Assembly: GCA_007693535.1 (NCBI GenBank)
Contig: REDK01000158.1
Coordinates: forward strand, 1-64,000
DNA length: 64,000 bases
DNA from: Chromatiaceae bacterium
Lineage (GTDB): Bacteria; Pseudomonadota; Gammaproteobacteria; Chromatiales; Chromatiaceae
Reading direction: 5' to 3'
This document shows, piece by piece, positions 52,545-64,000 of this stretch. Every line of letters begins with the position of its first letter. The first letter of the stretch is position 1. The notes beneath the pieces are model-generated. The model did no database searches. It was given only the letters and a program-made list of their open reading frames with translations, and was not told the DNA's origin. A program made the position numbers and the translations under genes.

Positions 52545-52991
52545 TCATGACTGGCCCAGCAGCTTGGTCAGCCGCGCGATCTCCTGCTGCGCCTCCACCT
52601 GCTCGGTCACGTCGTACTGCACCCCCAGATAGTAGAGCAACTGCCCTTGGCCATCGAACAGCGGGCGGATCGACAGGCGGTTGTAGAACAGGCTGCCGTC
52701 CTTGCGATAGTTGCGCAGGGTCACCTCCACCGGACGCTGCTCCGCCAGCGCCGCGCGGATGGCAGCAAGGGCATCCTGATCCTGATCGTCGGTCTGCAGG
52801 AACCGGCAGTTGCGCCCGACGATCTCGTCGCGGCTATAGCCAGTCATGCGCTCGAAGACCTCGTTGGCATAGACGATTGGGTTGTCCGGCAGGTCAGGGT
52901 CGGACAGGGTCACGCCATTGACACAGTTGTCGAGGATCTCGGCCAGGACCGCCGGAATCATGTCCGGATCTTTTTCGACTTCGAAATGCAT
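52545..52991 (-). CDS. Short LOV (PAS) domain protein, putative blue-light photoreceptor
   Basis: GRNCRFLQ motif with adduct-forming Cys, LRNYRKDGSLFYNRLSIRPL, YYLGVQYDVTEQ. Confidence 0.88.
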   Translation of the reverse strand: MHFEVEKDPDMIPAVLAEILDNCVNGVTLSDPDLPDNPIVYANEVFERMTGYSRDEIVGRNCRFLQTDDQDQDALAAIRAALAEQRPVEVTLRNYRKDGSLFYNRLSIRPLFDGQGQLLYYLGVQYDVTEQVEAQQEIARLTKLLGQS

Positions 52992-56910: not shown

Positions 56911-58398
56911 TCACCACCAGTCCAGGCCCTTCTCCAGCAGGACCTTCCTCGCCAACTCGTGGCCGCCGCGAGCCGCCCGTCGCAAGTGCTCGACCGCCAT
57001 TTTCTCGTCGGCCGGCATGCCGAGCCCGTTTTGGTGCATCCGGCCCAGGTTCCACTCTGCCGTGGCGAAACGCTGCGCCGCGGCCTGGCGGTACCAGTAG
57101 AGAGCTTGCTGGAGGTCGCGGGCCACGCCCCAGCCCTGCTCGTAGAGGTAGCCCAGGTTGTTCTGGCCGTTCGCGTCGCCCAGCTTCGCCGAGCGCTCGT
57201 AGTAGCGGAAGGCCTCGGCCAGGTCGACCGCGACGCCGAGCCCGAACTGGTACATCCAGCCGAGGCGGTCGAACGCTTGCGGGTGGTCCTGCGCGGCCGC
57301 CAGCCGGCACAAACGGAAGGCCTCGTCGAAGTCCTTCTCGACTCCCATCCCGTCCCCATACCGGACGCAGAGGTTGGTCTGGGCAAACCTGTTCCCCTGC
57401 GCCGCGGCCTTCTTATACCACTCGACGGCCTGTGCGTCGTCGACGGCCATGCCGCCCCGGCCGGTCGCAAGGAAGACGGCGTAGTTGTTCTGCGCCGCGG
57501 GTCGGCCTGCCTCGGCGGCCTGACGGTACAAGCGCAGGGCGGCCGCGTCATCCCGCGGTGCACCGAGGCCATAGTGGAAGGCACTCCCAGCTTTTTCCGC
57601 GGCCTCGGCATGGCCGAGGCCGGCGGCCTTGACGAACAGCTCGAGGGCTCGCACCGCGTCCTGCGACTCCAGGCGCACCCCCTCGTCGAAGATCTCCGCC
57701 GCGGAATCACTCCTCTGGGCGTCGGCGCGCACCTTCTGCGGCTCCTCGCCGGCCCCCGCTCCGGTCGCGAAGATCGCGGCATCCATCGTCGGGGTCGGCT
57801 CGCCCTTGGCATCGACGGCCTCGGCGTCGACCCGCCCGTTGCCCCTCACCCCGCTGACCCGCCAGGCGCCCACGACGATGGTGTCGTCGCCGAAGGAGAA
57901 GCTCAGCTCGACCCGATCGCCGACCACCGGAAAGGCGTCGCGATCGAGCTGGATCGTGACGTCCTGGCCGCGGACCTCGGTCACTTTCCCCGGCACGAAG
58001 GAGCTGTCGCTGCCGGGAACCCGGACATCGGGCCCTTGAGTGAAGCCAGGTCCGCGCGACGACCTGACCAGAGCGCGCATGCCCTCGGACGGCTGGAGGC
58101 CGAAGCCCTCGAGGAGCACGGCAATGACCTCGTCACCCCGCACTTCGGTGACTTGCCAGCGGCCGATGTGGGTCGCATTGCCGTCCCGGTCAGGCCAGTT
58201 CATCACCGTCACAGTGTCGTCGACCGCCGCGGTGGCGCCGGAGGGGATGAGAACGTGAATCGTATCGCCCCCCACCGAGGACACTGTGCCCTCGCTGTCC
58301 GCCCGGACCGGCGCCGCCAGGAGGACCGTCGATATTAGCGCCATTGCGGCAGCTACCCTGCATCCAACGATCATCGTCGTCACTCCCCGCCGCGTCAC
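56911..58398 (-). CDS. Exported Sel1-like repeat protein with two N-terminal beta-rich modules
   Basis: Signal peptide (MALISTVLLAAPVRA); about 7 Sel1 repeats (NNLGYLYEQGWGVARDLQQALYWYRQAAAQ). Confidence 0.88.
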   Translation of the reverse strand: MTRRGVTTMIVGCRVAAAMALISTVLLAAPVRADSEGTVSSVGGDTIHVLIPSGATAAVDDTVTVMNWPDRDGNATHIGRWQVTEVRGDEVIAVLLEGFGLQPSEGMRALVRSSRGPGFTQGPDVRVPGSDSSFVPGKVTEVRGQDVTIQLDRDAFPVVGDRVELSFSFGDDTIVVGAWRVSGVRGNGRVDAEAVDAKGEPTPTMDAAIFATGAGAGEEPQKVRADAQRSDSAAEIFDEGVRLESQDAVRALELFVKAAGLGHAEAAEKAGSAFHYGLGAPRDDAAALRLYRQAAEAGRPAAQNNYAVFLATGRGGMAVDDAQAVEWYKKAAAQGNRFAQTNLCVRYGDGMGVEKDFDEAFRLCRLAAAQDHPQAFDRLGWMYQFGLGVAVDLAEAFRYYERSAKLGDANGQNNLGYLYEQGWGVARDLQQALYWYRQAAAQRFATAEWNLGRMHQNGLGMPADEKMAVEHLRRAARGGHELARKVLLEKGLDWW

Positions 58399-59294
58399 CA
58401 GCCTATTCCCCGACTCGAGAGTTCGGCACGGGCGCGCGCACCGCCGGCGCGGGCGCTCTCCCGGAGCAGCTGATTCGCCCTCTCCTGCTGCCTGTACACC
58501 GCCCCGAGGGTGCCCGCCAGGTCGGTCAGCGGCTCCTGGTCGGGGAACTCGCGATGCTCAGCGGCCAGTCGATACCACCGCTCCGCCGCCGCGAGGTCGA
58601 CCTGGGTGCCTTGGCCGATGAGGTACCTGTGGCCGACCAGCCTGTACGACGGTGCGAACCCGTCCTCGGCGAGGGCGAGGTACACCTCGAAGGCCTCGCG
58701 CCACGCCGCCTGCTTCTCGGCGCCTTCGAGCATCATGGCGCGGCTGTCGAGCATGCCGGCGAGTTCGCGACGGGCGTCGAAGTGGTCCTTCTGGGCGGCC
58801 GCGCGCACCAGCTCGAAGGCCCGGTCCCAGTCCTGCACCACCCCCCAGCCGTGCTGGTAGTGCTTGGCCAACCTCATCTGCGCGCCGCGGCAGCCGGAGG
58901 ACGAGGCGCGCTCGAGCCACTGAAGGTGCGCGTCATCCTCGAGCACGATCACCCGCGCCGCGAGGCCCACGGTCGCCTCCGCCCGGGCCTCGGCCGGGCG
59001 GGCGCTGATTGCCCAAAGGCGGTCGGCGCCCGTCGCCGTGCGCAGGCTCTCGCGGACATTGTCGATGCACCAGAGGCCATAGGAGATCTCGTCGCCGTCC
59101 GGGGTCGCGTAGAGGATCTCCACCGCCGAGCCGAAGGAGAAGGTGCCGCCGGCGAGTTCGAGTCCGACCTGGCCCTCGGCGATGGCGACGACGGTGCCGC
59201 GGGCGGCGTCGCTCGCGGAGACGAGCGCCGCAACCGTCGTCAGGCAGAACAACAGGGCCACCCCGGCAGGCCACCATCTCGTGTGCTCGAACAT
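58395..59294 (-). CDS. Exported Sel1-like repeat protein with one N-terminal beta-rich module
   Basis: Signal-like N-terminus; Sel1 repeats (MRLAKHYQHGWGVVQDWDRAFELVRAAA); 4-bp overlap with the downstream gene. Confidence 0.8.
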   Translation of the reverse strand: MFEHTRWWPAGVALLFCLTTVAALVSASDAARGTVVAIAEGQVGLELAGGTFSFGSAVEILYATPDGDEISYGLWCIDNVRESLRTATGADRLWAISARPAEARAEATVGLAARVIVLEDDAHLQWLERASSSGCRGAQMRLAKHYQHGWGVVQDWDRAFELVRAAAQKDHFDARRELAGMLDSRAMMLEGAEKQAAWREAFEVYLALAEDGFAPSYRLVGHRYLIGQGTQVDLAAAERWYRLAAEHREFPDQEPLTDLAGTLGAVYRQQERANQLLRESARAGGARARAELSSRGIGW

Positions 59295-59307
59295 CTACCC
59301 TTCCTCG

Positions 59308-62300
59308 TCAGAGAGATCTTCCATACACCAGGCAGTACCAGCGGTTGCCGGTGGGCTCGTTCGTCGCGTTCCTGACCTCTCCGCCGACCGCGTAGTGCCC
59401 GTCGAAGTTCTCGTTGGTCCAGGTGCGCTCGAGGATGCCGGTCAGCTTTCCCGCGCTGTCGTACTGGTAAAAGGCGTTGCCCGTCCAGATAACGTAGTCG
59501 ACCGCGCCCGAAGAAGCGCCCATGAGAATCCTTTCACCCTGGCGGTATCCCTGCACCAGCCCCCCGTAGGGCGGAAAGACGAAGCCGACCACTGGCTCGG
59601 TCTCGACCGGCGTCGGCGCGGGGGGAAGCGGAGGGCGACCATCCTGGCCGCACGGCAGTGCGAAGGGCGCGATCTCCTGGATCATCTTCCGGCCGAGATC
59701 GAGTCCCATCCGCTCGTCCCAACCGACGTGATAGAGGCGTACGCGCACCTTCCGCGTGCGGCTGTACAGGTCCCAGTGCGCCGGCCCCAGGATCGGATCC
59801 TCTCCCCTGCGAAACCTCTCGGCGTTGTCCACGTTCGGGTCGACGAGATGGTCCGGCTTGCAGAAGTTCTCGTGCCCACTTGGGTCGACGTCGGTCGCAT
59901 CGGCGGCGATCCAGTGGACACGAATGAAGGTGTCCGGCTCCTTGCAGTACTGGCCCCCCCTGCCCGGGGGCGGGTCCGGCACGTGGTAGGAGCAGGAGAA
60001 CTGACTGCCCCACCTGTTGCCGGTGATTCTCCCGCTCGTGGGGGCTAAGGACCACCACATGTCGGGGCAGTAGTTGAAGGTGCCGCCGACGACCTGCCTC
60101 ATCAGGCGCTGCGGACACACAAGGCTTGGCTGCTCACCCACGGTCGTCTCCCTGACCGGCGCGGGCACCGCCGGCGGCGCAACGCCCGGGCTGTACACCG
60201 ACAGGGTCACCACGGCACCCGCGCTCACCGACGAGCCGGCGGCGACAGACTGGGCCTGGACCCTTCCGTCCTCGCCGGGAACGGACGCCGGCGAACCCGG
60301 TGCGAGAGCCACCGCCAGCTCCTGGGACGCGAGGCGCTGCTTCGCCTCGCCGACGGACAGCCCGACCAGCGCAGGAACGGCTCGCAGGTCGACGAAGCCC
60401 GAGTGCACCCTCAGCGTGACCCGCCTCCCCGGCGCCACCGTCACGCCGGGGGCGGGCTCCTGCGCCTCCACCGCGCCGGCCAGGGTCGGGCTGGGGGCGG
60501 GGGCTCCCGGCACCAGCTCGACGGCGGCAGGGTCGACGCCCGCCGCGGCGAGGGCCGCCCTCGCCTCACGGGTGGACATGCCGACCAGGTCGGGGATGGT
60601 GGTGGTGGCCACGAAGGGCGAGCGCACCCAGATGGCGATCTGGGCGCCCGCTTCAAGGCGGGTTCCGGCAACGGGATCCTGGGCCTCGACGGTGTCCGAG
60701 TCCGTCGGCCTCGCGGCCGGTGACCCCGGCCGCAGGGCCGCGACCAGGCCACGCTCCTCGAGCCGGCGCCTGGCCTCGGGCCGGCTCAGGCCGACCAGAT
60801 CAGGCGCCGTGATCGCCGGCGCCACGTAGGGAGCATGCACCACCAGGGTCAGGGTCTGGCCGCGCCGCAGGTGCTGCCACGACGGCGGATCCTGCCGCTC
60901 GACAGTGCCCTCCCCATCCTTCGTGGACGCCGGCGAGCCGGGCGAGAGCGCAACCTCGAAGCCGGCGGCCTGCACCTCGGCCCGGGCCGCGGCGAGCCGC
61001 GCGCCGCCGAGGTCGCGCACTGCGCCGTAGCGGCCGCGGCAGGGATCGACGGAAAGCCCCTCGAGCCGGGCCACGACGTACTCCTCGAGGGTGCAGTGGT
61101 CGATCGAGTCGAGCCCGGTCCTCAGGGCGGACCACACCCTTGCCTCGGAGGAGACGCCGGCGCCGTAGTCGACCGAGCCGTGGCTCGAGATCGCCCGTCC
61201 GGTCACGCCGCCGCCGCCGATCTTCCGGCCGAGCTCGTCGTAGCGGAAGCTCACCCCCGGGACCGCGTTCTCCGGCGGCTCGGCCACCGACAGCCACTCG
61301 CGGACCAGGTTCGCCACCTCGGGCTGGCGGTCCGGGTCCAGGCTGCCGGGGCGCGAGGCGTCGACCCGCCCGGTCGCCGGTGGCTCGGCTGTCACGGGCC
61401 CGGTGTCCGTGACGGATCCCGCACCGCCCCCGGCGCCCGCCGCCTCGCCCCGCTCCTGACCCTCTGTCGCGCCCGCCGCCCCGCCTGCAGCGACGTCCGC
61501 GTCCTCGGCGATCGGCCCGGCCGATTCCTCCACCTCCGGCCCGACCCCGCCGCCAGTCGGTCTTCCGGCCGGTCCCGGTCCGGTGTAGGGCCGGCTGGAG
61601 TAGATGGCGTAGCCGTAGGAGCGGAGGTTCAGCTTCTGTCCGCTGCTCCACGGGTGGCGGTCGTCGGTCAAGCTGTAGAACACCGGGATAACCCACAGGG
61701 TGGCCGGGTCGTGCAGGTGCCCGGCCAGGTCGCGCTCGGGGTCGCCGAAGCGCGCTCTCCGGTCGCCGCCCGAAAGCTCCAGGCGGACGGTGCACCTGCC
61801 CTCGGTGGGCTCGGGGTTGTAGAAAGGGTTGCCTTGCCACTGCGTCCACACCCAGTAGCCGCCGGTGCACCCCTCGGGCTTCTGCTCGAGCGGCGCCCAG
61901 AAGGAGGGGATCGCGTCACCCTCCACGAGATGCCGGTCGGGCGGCACGGTGGTGGTGGTCACCAGCCGGTGCACGCCGCCCGTGAAGAAGAGCGGGAAGG
62001 ATGCGCCCGAGGCTTCAATCACCTCGAGCCTGGCGTCGAGACGGCCCACCTTCAGGTACTCTGGCTGGAGCTCGGGCGGGAAGTCCACGCTCAGGCGGCT
62101 CACCGCGCGCTGCTCCGGCCGGTCGGGCCGGGTCCGCCAGCGGGCGCGCATATCGACCGTCGCACTCGAGCCTGAGACCCGCGGCGGGCCGATGGTCAGA
62201 GCTCCTGAGTAGGCGCTGCCGGGCAGCGGCAGCTCGGACACCTCCTCGGCCACGAAGCCGGCGAAGACGAGCCGCACGGCGGCCACCTCGAAGCTGCCCT

Positions 62301-63255
62301 CGTCCTGCCACTCGCCGTCGACGTACGGTGTCGCCTCGCCCTGGCCGAACACCGCCGAGCCCTCCATTCGCACGCTCACGGTCTGTACCGTGTAACGTCC
62401 CGGGCCCGCGCGGGCCCTGGCCGGGTCGGGGTCGTCCCGGGGGTTCCACAGCTCGACCGGCACGGCGAAGCGGCCGGGTGAGCCCTCGACGGCGAAGGGC
62501 ATGGTGAGCTCGGGCGCGCCGGCCGCGCCCCGGTCCCGGAACTCGCCGCCCGCCACCCGGGCGCCGTTGGGGCCCAGGATCCGCCAGTTGAAGAACTGGC
62601 TCTCGCCGATCGGCTCGCGCAGGTCACGGGCAGGAGTGAAGAACACCCCGATCCGGTCGCTCCACAGCACCGGCGCCCGCTCCGGGTCGCAGTGCTCGAA
62701 GGCCCGCTCGACCGGCAGGTCCTCGGGCGCGTCGCCCCGGAGGGCGCACACCGCCACCGTGGCCGCGCCGGGCGCCGTCGCCCGAGAGAACCGGAGTGGG
62801 ATCGCGACCTCCCGCTCCGGCGGGGACACGGCCTCGTGACGGGCCTCGACCCGCAGCACGATCCGGGCCTCCTCCCGGTCCTCTCCGGTCGCACGCTCGG
62901 CCGCGGTGTCGAAGACGAGGATCACCGTCTTGGAGTGCTCGCCCGGCGCGAAATCGAGCTGGGGGCCGCCCTCCCAGCGGACGTTCCTGACGAACGCCGG
63001 CTGCTCGGCAACCGACACCTCGAACCGCTGGCCGCCCTCGTCCTGGGGCCCGCGGTCCGACCAGCGGTGCACCACCAGCTCGAGGCGCAGGTCCTTCTGG
63101 TCTCCCTCGAGCGGCACGGCCTCTGGTATCGGCAGCGCCTCCTCCCAGGACGGCGGCCCGGCCTCGCGGCGCTCCTGGGCGTCCTGGGCCGCCGCCGGCA
63201 GGCAGCACAGCGCGGCGGCCGCGACACAGCCCAGGAGCAGGCTAGGGCCTCTCAC
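59308..63255 (-). CDS. Large secreted protein with four PASTA domains (1315 aa)
   Basis: Signal peptide; repeats such as APDLVGLSRPEARRRLEERGLVAALRPGSPAARPTDSDTVEAQDPVAGTRLEAGAQIAIWV. Confidence 0.85.
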   Translation of the reverse strand: MRGPSLLLGCVAAAALCCLPAAAQDAQERREAGPPSWEEALPIPEAVPLEGDQKDLRLELVVHRWSDRGPQDEGGQRFEVSVAEQPAFVRNVRWEGGPQLDFAPGEHSKTVILVFDTAAERATGEDREEARIVLRVEARHEAVSPPEREVAIPLRFSRATAPGAATVAVCALRGDAPEDLPVERAFEHCDPERAPVLWSDRIGVFFTPARDLREPIGESQFFNWRILGPNGARVAGGEFRDRGAAGAPELTMPFAVEGSPGRFAVPVELWNPRDDPDPARARAGPGRYTVQTVSVRMEGSAVFGQGEATPYVDGEWQDEGSFEVAAVRLVFAGFVAEEVSELPLPGSAYSGALTIGPPRVSGSSATVDMRARWRTRPDRPEQRAVSRLSVDFPPELQPEYLKVGRLDARLEVIEASGASFPLFFTGGVHRLVTTTTVPPDRHLVEGDAIPSFWAPLEQKPEGCTGGYWVWTQWQGNPFYNPEPTEGRCTVRLELSGGDRRARFGDPERDLAGHLHDPATLWVIPVFYSLTDDRHPWSSGQKLNLRSYGYAIYSSRPYTGPGPAGRPTGGGVGPEVEESAGPIAEDADVAAGGAAGATEGQERGEAAGAGGGAGSVTDTGPVTAEPPATGRVDASRPGSLDPDRQPEVANLVREWLSVAEPPENAVPGVSFRYDELGRKIGGGGVTGRAISSHGSVDYGAGVSSEARVWSALRTGLDSIDHCTLEEYVVARLEGLSVDPCRGRYGAVRDLGGARLAAARAEVQAAGFEVALSPGSPASTKDGEGTVERQDPPSWQHLRRGQTLTLVVHAPYVAPAITAPDLVGLSRPEARRRLEERGLVAALRPGSPAARPTDSDTVEAQDPVAGTRLEAGAQIAIWVRSPFVATTTIPDLVGMSTREARAALAAAGVDPAAVELVPGAPAPSPTLAGAVEAQEPAPGVTVAPGRRVTLRVHSGFVDLRAVPALVGLSVGEAKQRLASQELAVALAPGSPASVPGEDGRVQAQSVAAGSSVSAGAVVTLSVYSPGVAPPAVPAPVRETTVGEQPSLVCPQRLMRQVVGGTFNYCPDMWWSLAPTSGRITGNRWGSQFSCSYHVPDPPPGRGGQYCKEPDTFIRVHWIAADATDVDPSGHENFCKPDHLVDPNVDNAERFRRGEDPILGPAHWDLYSRTRKVRVRLYHVGWDERMGLDLGRKMIQEIAPFALPCGQDGRPPLPPAPTPVETEPVVGFVFPPYGGLVQGYRQGERILMGASSGAVDYVIWTGNAFYQYDSAGKLTGILERTWTNENFDGHYAVGGEVRNATNEPTGNRWYCLVYGRSL

Positions 63256-64000
63256 CGCCGCATCCAGAACATCAGCCAGGGCGCCGGGTTGTCCACGTCC
63301 TGGAGCTCGGCGCGACCGAGCACGCCCTCATAGATCGCCCTCATCCCGATTTCCAACCCCGCCCGGTCGGCCTCGCTCAGCTCCCGATCGGGCGGGTAGC
63401 GCCGCCGCAGTTCCTGCTGCCGGGTCTCGATCTCGTCGGCCAACCGCTGCCTTCGCTGGCGGTCGGCCTCGATGCCCCGTCGGAGGTCGGCCAGGTGTTC
63501 CTCGGTGCTCAGCCTCTGCTCGACCAGCCGCGTCCGGCCGCTCTCGTCCGTGACCTCGCGAACCCGCACCGGGGGCTGCAGCATGGCCTTGGCGCCGACC
63601 GAGTCGTAGATGTCCGCGGCGCCGACCGTGGTGGCGATGCGGTGGGCGTCCGTGCGCACGGCCCTGATGGCGTCCTCGTCGCCGCTGGCCACGGCCCGCT
63701 CGTGCTCGCGCTGCCACACCGCCGCCGTCTCGGCGAGGATCCGTGGCGCCATGTCCTGCATCCAGGCGGCCAGCGCGGCGGCGTTGGCCGCCCTGGTCTC
63801 CGGCGTGTCGCCGCCGACTACCGCCCAGGGGTCGGGGTTGTCGCCCTTCTGCTTCATCCCGGCCAGGAGCCGCACCATGGGCAGGTCCTCGGCGCTGAAG
63901 ACCGAGCGCGTGGCAGCCCTGAGCGCCTCACCCTCGAGACCGCCGGCCACCGCCTGGAGACGCTGCCGCTGCGCACCGCTGCCTGCGGTCACCAGGGCCT
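63252..64000 (-). CDS. Hypothetical protein, partial at window edge
   Basis: Open frame continues past 64000; 4-bp overlap with the PASTA gene; coiled-coil-like C-terminal half ending PAPWLMFWMRR. Confidence 0.65.
   Translation of the reverse strand, partial: ALVTAGSGAQRQRLQAVAGGLEGEALRAATRSVFSAEDLPMVRLLAGMKQKGDNPDPWAVVGGDTPETRAANAAALAAWMQDMAPRILAETAAVWQREHERAVASGDEDAIRAVRTDAHRIATTVGAADIYDSVGAKAMLQPPVRVREVTDESGRTRLVEQRLSTEEHLADLRRGIEADRQRRQRLADEIETRQQELRRRYPPDRELSEADRAGLEIGMRAIYEGVLGRAELQDVDNPAPWLMFWMRR

Follow-up and report, generated by a model that had tools for sequence, protein, structure and literature searches.

What can a bacterium do with an operon in which two very large exported proteins are encoded together with two proteins built of Sel1 repeats? 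The question is raised by contig REDK01000158.1 of a Chromatiaceae bacterium (assembly GCA_007693535.1), whose first 64,000 bases, here called the window, end within a cluster of four minus-strand genes that we name, in order, g1, g2, g3 and g4. The window is the start of a contig of 68277 bp (C71) in a draft genome of 4.16 Mb, and the 4277 bp of contig beyond it allowed the whole cluster to be read. We tentatively propose, with our confidence somewhat short of even, that the operon encodes a rare accessory envelope complex, Sec-exported, with the Sel1 proteins as adaptors.

The original prediction had described four tightly packed genes with two 4-bp overlaps and a 13-bp gap between g2 and g3 (59295-59307), and all four open reading frames (ORFs), both overlaps and the gap lie exactly where it had placed them. 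Should g4 start instead at an ATG 8 codons in, the g3/g4 overlap would be lost. The first gene, which had been taken as partial, is in the contig a complete ORF that begins 67 bp short of the contig end. Pfam upheld the four PASTA domains assigned to g2 (PF03793, 148.3 bits against a gathering score of 23.2) and the Sel1 repeats assigned to g3 and g4 (PF08238, 40.4 and 170.8 bits against 30.7), and the view that the combination is no named system also stands, Pfam, NCBIfam, PHROGs and PADLOC giving only PASTA and Sel1 repeats. Given that antisense ORFs of up to 877 aa are present in the same GC-rich DNA, a test of coding by the GC content of third codon positions (GC3) was of importance; GC3 is 0.87-0.93 in the operon genes, which, together with the Pfam domains in g2-g4, supports all four as coding. 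Judged by eye and by hydropathy, the N termini of all four proteins resemble Sec signal peptides (g1, LVWVLVLAAGAMAAPVAA; g2, LLLGCVAAAALCCLPAAAQ; g3 and g4 likewise). The three signal peptides previously claimed are therefore borne out, but g1 raises their number to four, and all four products look like exported proteins.

The N-terminal regions of g3 and g4 proved to be distinctive. Like other exported Sel1-repeat proteins (AlgK, ExoR, MotX, Tli5b/PA5087 and Sel1E), they place a Sel1 solenoid after an N-terminal region, and tandem genes are known for some of these; unlike them, they carry a six-stranded barrel before the repeats, once in g3 and twice in g4, and nothing scores above an equivalog cut-off, the NCBIfam matches of g4 to AlgK and ExoR being weak and well under it. 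When aligned, the barrel domains of the two proteins are 19-24% identical and share G, V, W and R positions, g3 and g4 align over the Sel1 part with an hhalign E of 2.9e-12, and both proteins end in a Gly/Trp tail. The modelled domain pair of g4 consists of two six-stranded barrels (mean predicted local distance difference test score, pLDDT, 67.9), and the best Foldseek fold match for one barrel was the N-terminal barrel of an F1-ATPase subunit (E 8e-4, TM-score 0.34 of the two-domain query). A search of 199 family and 198 class genomes with the barrel profile returned one clear relative (G017:C42, E 0.003) and a weak match in G193; a match in G030 was rejected as a different lipoprotein.

The clear relative lies in another genus and brought with it the only related layout that we found. 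There, at L109:6994-12837, three coupled genes with a stop/start ATGA overlap encode exported proteins, in order a helix-rich giant of 1371 aa without a Pfam match, a Sel1 protein, and a barrel-Sel1 protein of 387 aa that combines a barrel, a PG_binding_1 domain (4.6e-16) and Sel1 repeats and ends in GVAW, a tail similar to the GLDWW of g4. The match between this protein and g4 (E 1e-19) falls chiefly on the Sel1 repeats, the barrel-to-barrel alignment being weak. In contrast to the operon studied here, the locus has no PASTA gene, its Sel1 gene lacks a barrel, and PG_binding_1 stands where g4 has its second barrel.

Because two genera share an exported giant, a Sel1 protein and a barrel-Sel1 protein, and each set also has a module of the wall-binding kind (g2 with PASTA, G017 with PG_binding_1), an envelope complex is the function we propose. 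The tight packing of the genes, the predicted export of all four products and the barrel-plus-Sel1 build common to g3 and g4 would be in keeping with it. Sel1 repeats are protein-protein modules (PMC7108748). Having left the cytoplasm through the Sec pathway, the four products would come together either in the periplasm or at the cell surface, where the Sel1 proteins would serve as adaptors, their helical solenoids and small barrels holding the giants. The PASTA domains of g2 would anchor the complex to the cell wall, whereas in the other genus PG_binding_1, within the barrel-Sel1 protein itself, would be the tie to the wall; g1 would be the large working part. What the sequence shows directly is the structure of the genes, their domains, N termini that resemble signal peptides, foreign codon usage and a giant/Sel1/barrel-Sel1 layout that recurs in one other genus; that the products form a complex, that it binds the wall and what g1 does in it are inferred.

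Several points weigh against such a complex. The giants of the two operons show no sequence relationship (hhalign E 0.33), the layout is known from just two instances, and the second of these is without a PASTA protein; to our knowledge, moreover, peptidoglycan binding is not universal among PASTA proteins. In addition, a repeat inserted before g1, described below, may have cost that gene its native start or promoter, so that the operon is perhaps non-working now.

Table 1. Coordinates of the operon genes and of features within them (window positions, except where the contig or another locus is named)
Feature	Position	Strand	Basis
g1, C-terminal 248 codons in window	63252..64000	-	ORF read into rest of contig
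g1 whole: 1652-aa exported helix-rich protein	to contig position 68210 (L002:7253-12211)	-	TTG start
Nucleotidyltransferase-like motif GG-x13-DIDF of g1	residues 1185-1203, contig about 64602-64658 (beyond window)	-	motif search
g1/g2 overlap, reads GTGA	63252..63255	-	sequence
g2: 1315-aa exported protein, long N-terminal region of no family, 4 PASTA, Cys-containing C-terminal region	59308..63255	-	Pfam PF03793 E 5.9e-44, 4 stretches
PASTA domain 1	60838..61020	-	PASTA profile
PASTA domain 2	60625..60810	-	PASTA profile
PASTA domain 3	60406..60600	-	PASTA profile
PASTA domain 4	60193..60378	-	PASTA profile
g3: 299-aa exported protein, 1 N-terminal beta-barrel + Sel1 repeats, C-terminus ...RGIGW	58395..59294	-	Pfam Sel1 3.7e-10
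Barrel domain of g3	58944..59213	-	domain alignment, barrel profile
g3/g4 overlap, reads GTGA	58395..58398	-	sequence
g4: 495-aa exported protein, 2 barrels + 6 Sel1 repeats, C-terminus ...KGLDWW	56911..58398	-	Pfam Sel1 2.4e-51, 6 stretches; relative L109:11674-12834
Barrel domain 1 of g4	58024..58296	-	model, barrel profile
Barrel domain 2 of g4	57736..58005	-	model, barrel profile

The original prediction had considered PASTA domains in a secreted protein without a kinase to be unusual for such a bacterium, but in this family they are not. Of its 204 genomes, 23 have PASTA, spread over 16 of the 61 genera, and among the 26 PASTA ORFs examined with crude motif and hydropathy tests a kinase signature was found in none and a hydrophobic N-terminal segment in most. 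Like the PASTA kinases (PknB/StkP) and penicillin-binding proteins, g2 has tandem PASTA domains of normal length; unlike them, it is predicted to be exported, has no kinase or transpeptidase domain, and its N- and C-terminal regions are unrelated to theirs. No Pfam kinase was matched in g2, and the kinase model NF033483 (124 bits against a cut-off of 450) and the PADLOC model PD-T4-6 each matched the PASTA part only, with no named defence system detected. The terminal regions have no Pfam match, and the structure model of the C-terminal one was unusable (pLDDT 39). Searches of 55 related genomes, 340 class genomes (queried with the part of g2 outside PASTA), plasmids and viral contigs gave PASTA segments only and no relatives of g2 beyond them.

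A Sel1 gene lies near just one of the 26 PASTA loci (G032:C20), beside a Ser/Thr kinase and in a different gene arrangement. In an arrangement of this kind, at L009:2-5190, an exported four-PASTA protein is accompanied by a divergent Sel1 lipoprotein-like gene, with a Ser/Thr kinase bearing an FGE-like C terminus nearby. We found no description of PASTA + Sel1 operons in the literature. Given that this pairing is barely conserved and that no full-length relatives of g2 were found, the PASTA protein probably serves as an exchangeable component and not as the hallmark of the system. Of the neighbourhood originally proposed as a unit, a layout of exported giant, Sel1 and barrel-Sel1 recurs in another genus, at a locus that has no PASTA gene.

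Kinases with an FGE-like C terminus near a PASTA protein in G032 and G018 would suit a PASTA sensor that feeds a Ser/Thr kinase pathway in the Gram-positive style. We set this aside as highly improbable here, because the surroundings of the operon, up to the contig end, showed no gene for a kinase, a phosphatase or an FHA protein; nor was there a PASTA kinase among the 26 ORFs. Two PASTA loci deserve mention in their own right. One (L010:1545-11321) has PP2C-, FHA- and kinase-FGE-like genes near an exported PASTA protein of 1070 aa, on whose far side lies an exported giant of 2771 aa or more. The other, in a congeneric genome (L071:3122-11776), has an exported four-PASTA protein of 1317 aa with Ig/glucodextranase-B repeats, adjoining an FG-GAP repeat protein of 1370 aa.

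The giant g1 is without a match in Pfam, NCBIfam, PHROGs, PADLOC or PDB sequences. Searches of GTDB genome contigs (with peptide patterns, the whole protein and the nucleotidyltransferase-like part), viral contigs, plasmids and genomes at the level of class (369), family (210) and phylum (399) found no relatives, only weak, short matches that we took as chance, among them the best class match, which lies inside an outer-membrane FadL-like protein. Residues 1181-1203 of g1 (AIVQGGAAKGNPEYQGLFGDIDF) and, further on, the DAAV at 1264 (in the strand LILDAAVK) come in the order of a pol-beta-type nucleotidyltransferase, and the pattern hG[GS]x(9-13)Dh[DE]h occurs once in the protein; since 4-8% of shuffled sequences also contain the motif alone, it is a lead only. 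Any resemblance to Pol-beta and OAS-type enzymes would lie in GG-x13-D-I-D-F and a later strand Asp in a plausible order. In contrast to these enzymes, g1 matches no nucleotidyltransferase profile and appears to be exported to where ATP is scarce. In a very unlikely reading, g1 would be the founding member of a family of giant nucleotidyltransferases that leave the cell by Sec and act, by modification, on a target beyond the cytoplasm in which they are made; the barrel-Sel1 proteins would then be dedicated adaptors or immunity proteins, and the PASTA partner would be bound to the wall.

The codon usage of the operon departs from that of 23 other genes in the window (chi per codon 0.26-0.61 vs 0.134 +/- 0.068), with TAT falling from 51 to 13% and CAT from 47 to 15%, and GAG rising from 73 to 94%, CTC from 21 to 42% and AGG from 1 to 14%; its GC content is 71.3% vs 67.6%. 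Because codon usage and GC differ, and because g1 and g2 are absent from the other genus and family genomes searched, the natural reading of the sequence is that the operon was horizontally acquired from a GC-richer donor.

An operon that is foreign, rare and flanked by a repeat might also be an effector-immunity cassette, in which g1, g2 or both would be exported antagonists and the two exported Sel1 proteins periplasmic immunity proteins. There is precedent in the Sel1 immunity proteins Sel1E and Tli5b (PMC7108748, PMC13133936) and in Acinetobacter, where Sel1 genes adjoin type VI secretion system toxin genes (PMC6838775), and in our two genomes the giant varies while its Sel1 neighbours are similar. 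On the other hand, no toxin, VgrG/PAAR/RHS or other delivery domain was recognised in g1 or g2, and an order with two giants first is equally typical of structural operons; we regard this main rival as unlikely. Nor do we give much credence to a surface or matrix operon, a rather unlikely account in which g2 and g1 would be released or displayed as adhesin-like proteins and the Sel1 proteins would act in export or assembly, as AlgK does for alginate. Some PASTA proteins of the family are indeed giants that lie near FG-GAP proteins or have Ig and carboxypeptidase-regulatory repeats, which are typical of surface proteins, and the sub-threshold resemblance of g4 to AlgK and ExoR points the same way, but no sorting or anchoring signal was seen, the operon holds no secretion partner, and no adjoining polysaccharide genes were recognised.

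Reading past position 64000 not only completed g1 but revealed a repeat directly upstream of it. The terminal 55 bp of the contig (C71:68223-68277, L002:12224-12278) are identical at C35:29585-29639 and C175:11341-11395; no more than about 15 bp separate the repeat from the start of g1, and its copy in C175 disrupts an hsdS-like gene. Most likely it represents a mobile element that the assembly lacks, and further genes upstream of g1 may be missing from the contig. Given that no clear ribosome-binding site precedes the TTG of g1, its native start may be lost. A repeat found at three contig ends, so close to g1 and able to break a gene elsewhere, together with such a start, would fit a decaying remnant, cut by a mobile repeat from its promoter and perhaps its first genes and devoid of function. 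However, about 3760 codons are uninterrupted across the four genes, the GC3 bias is strong, and the repeat end holds a promoter-like TTGCCA-N16-TACAAT directed into g1 (1 found vs 0.0 expected), and we consider decay quite improbable. The same repeat closes contig C35, on which lies an ORF of 1967 aa with an apple/PAN-like stretch near the N terminus (L014:4222-10122).

Elsewhere in the window, a short LOV/PAS-type photoreceptor-like protein of 148 aa with the motif GRNCRFLQ, recognised by eye, is encoded at 52545-52991 on the minus strand.

For the family, these data correct the idea that PASTA domains outside kinases are exceptional. If the operon does encode an envelope complex, a rare exported cassette, with its unusual pairing of a six-stranded barrel before Sel1 repeats and its orphan protein of 1652 aa, would join the many envelope complexes, and the barrel profile would be a means to find more such operons and what their giants have in common.
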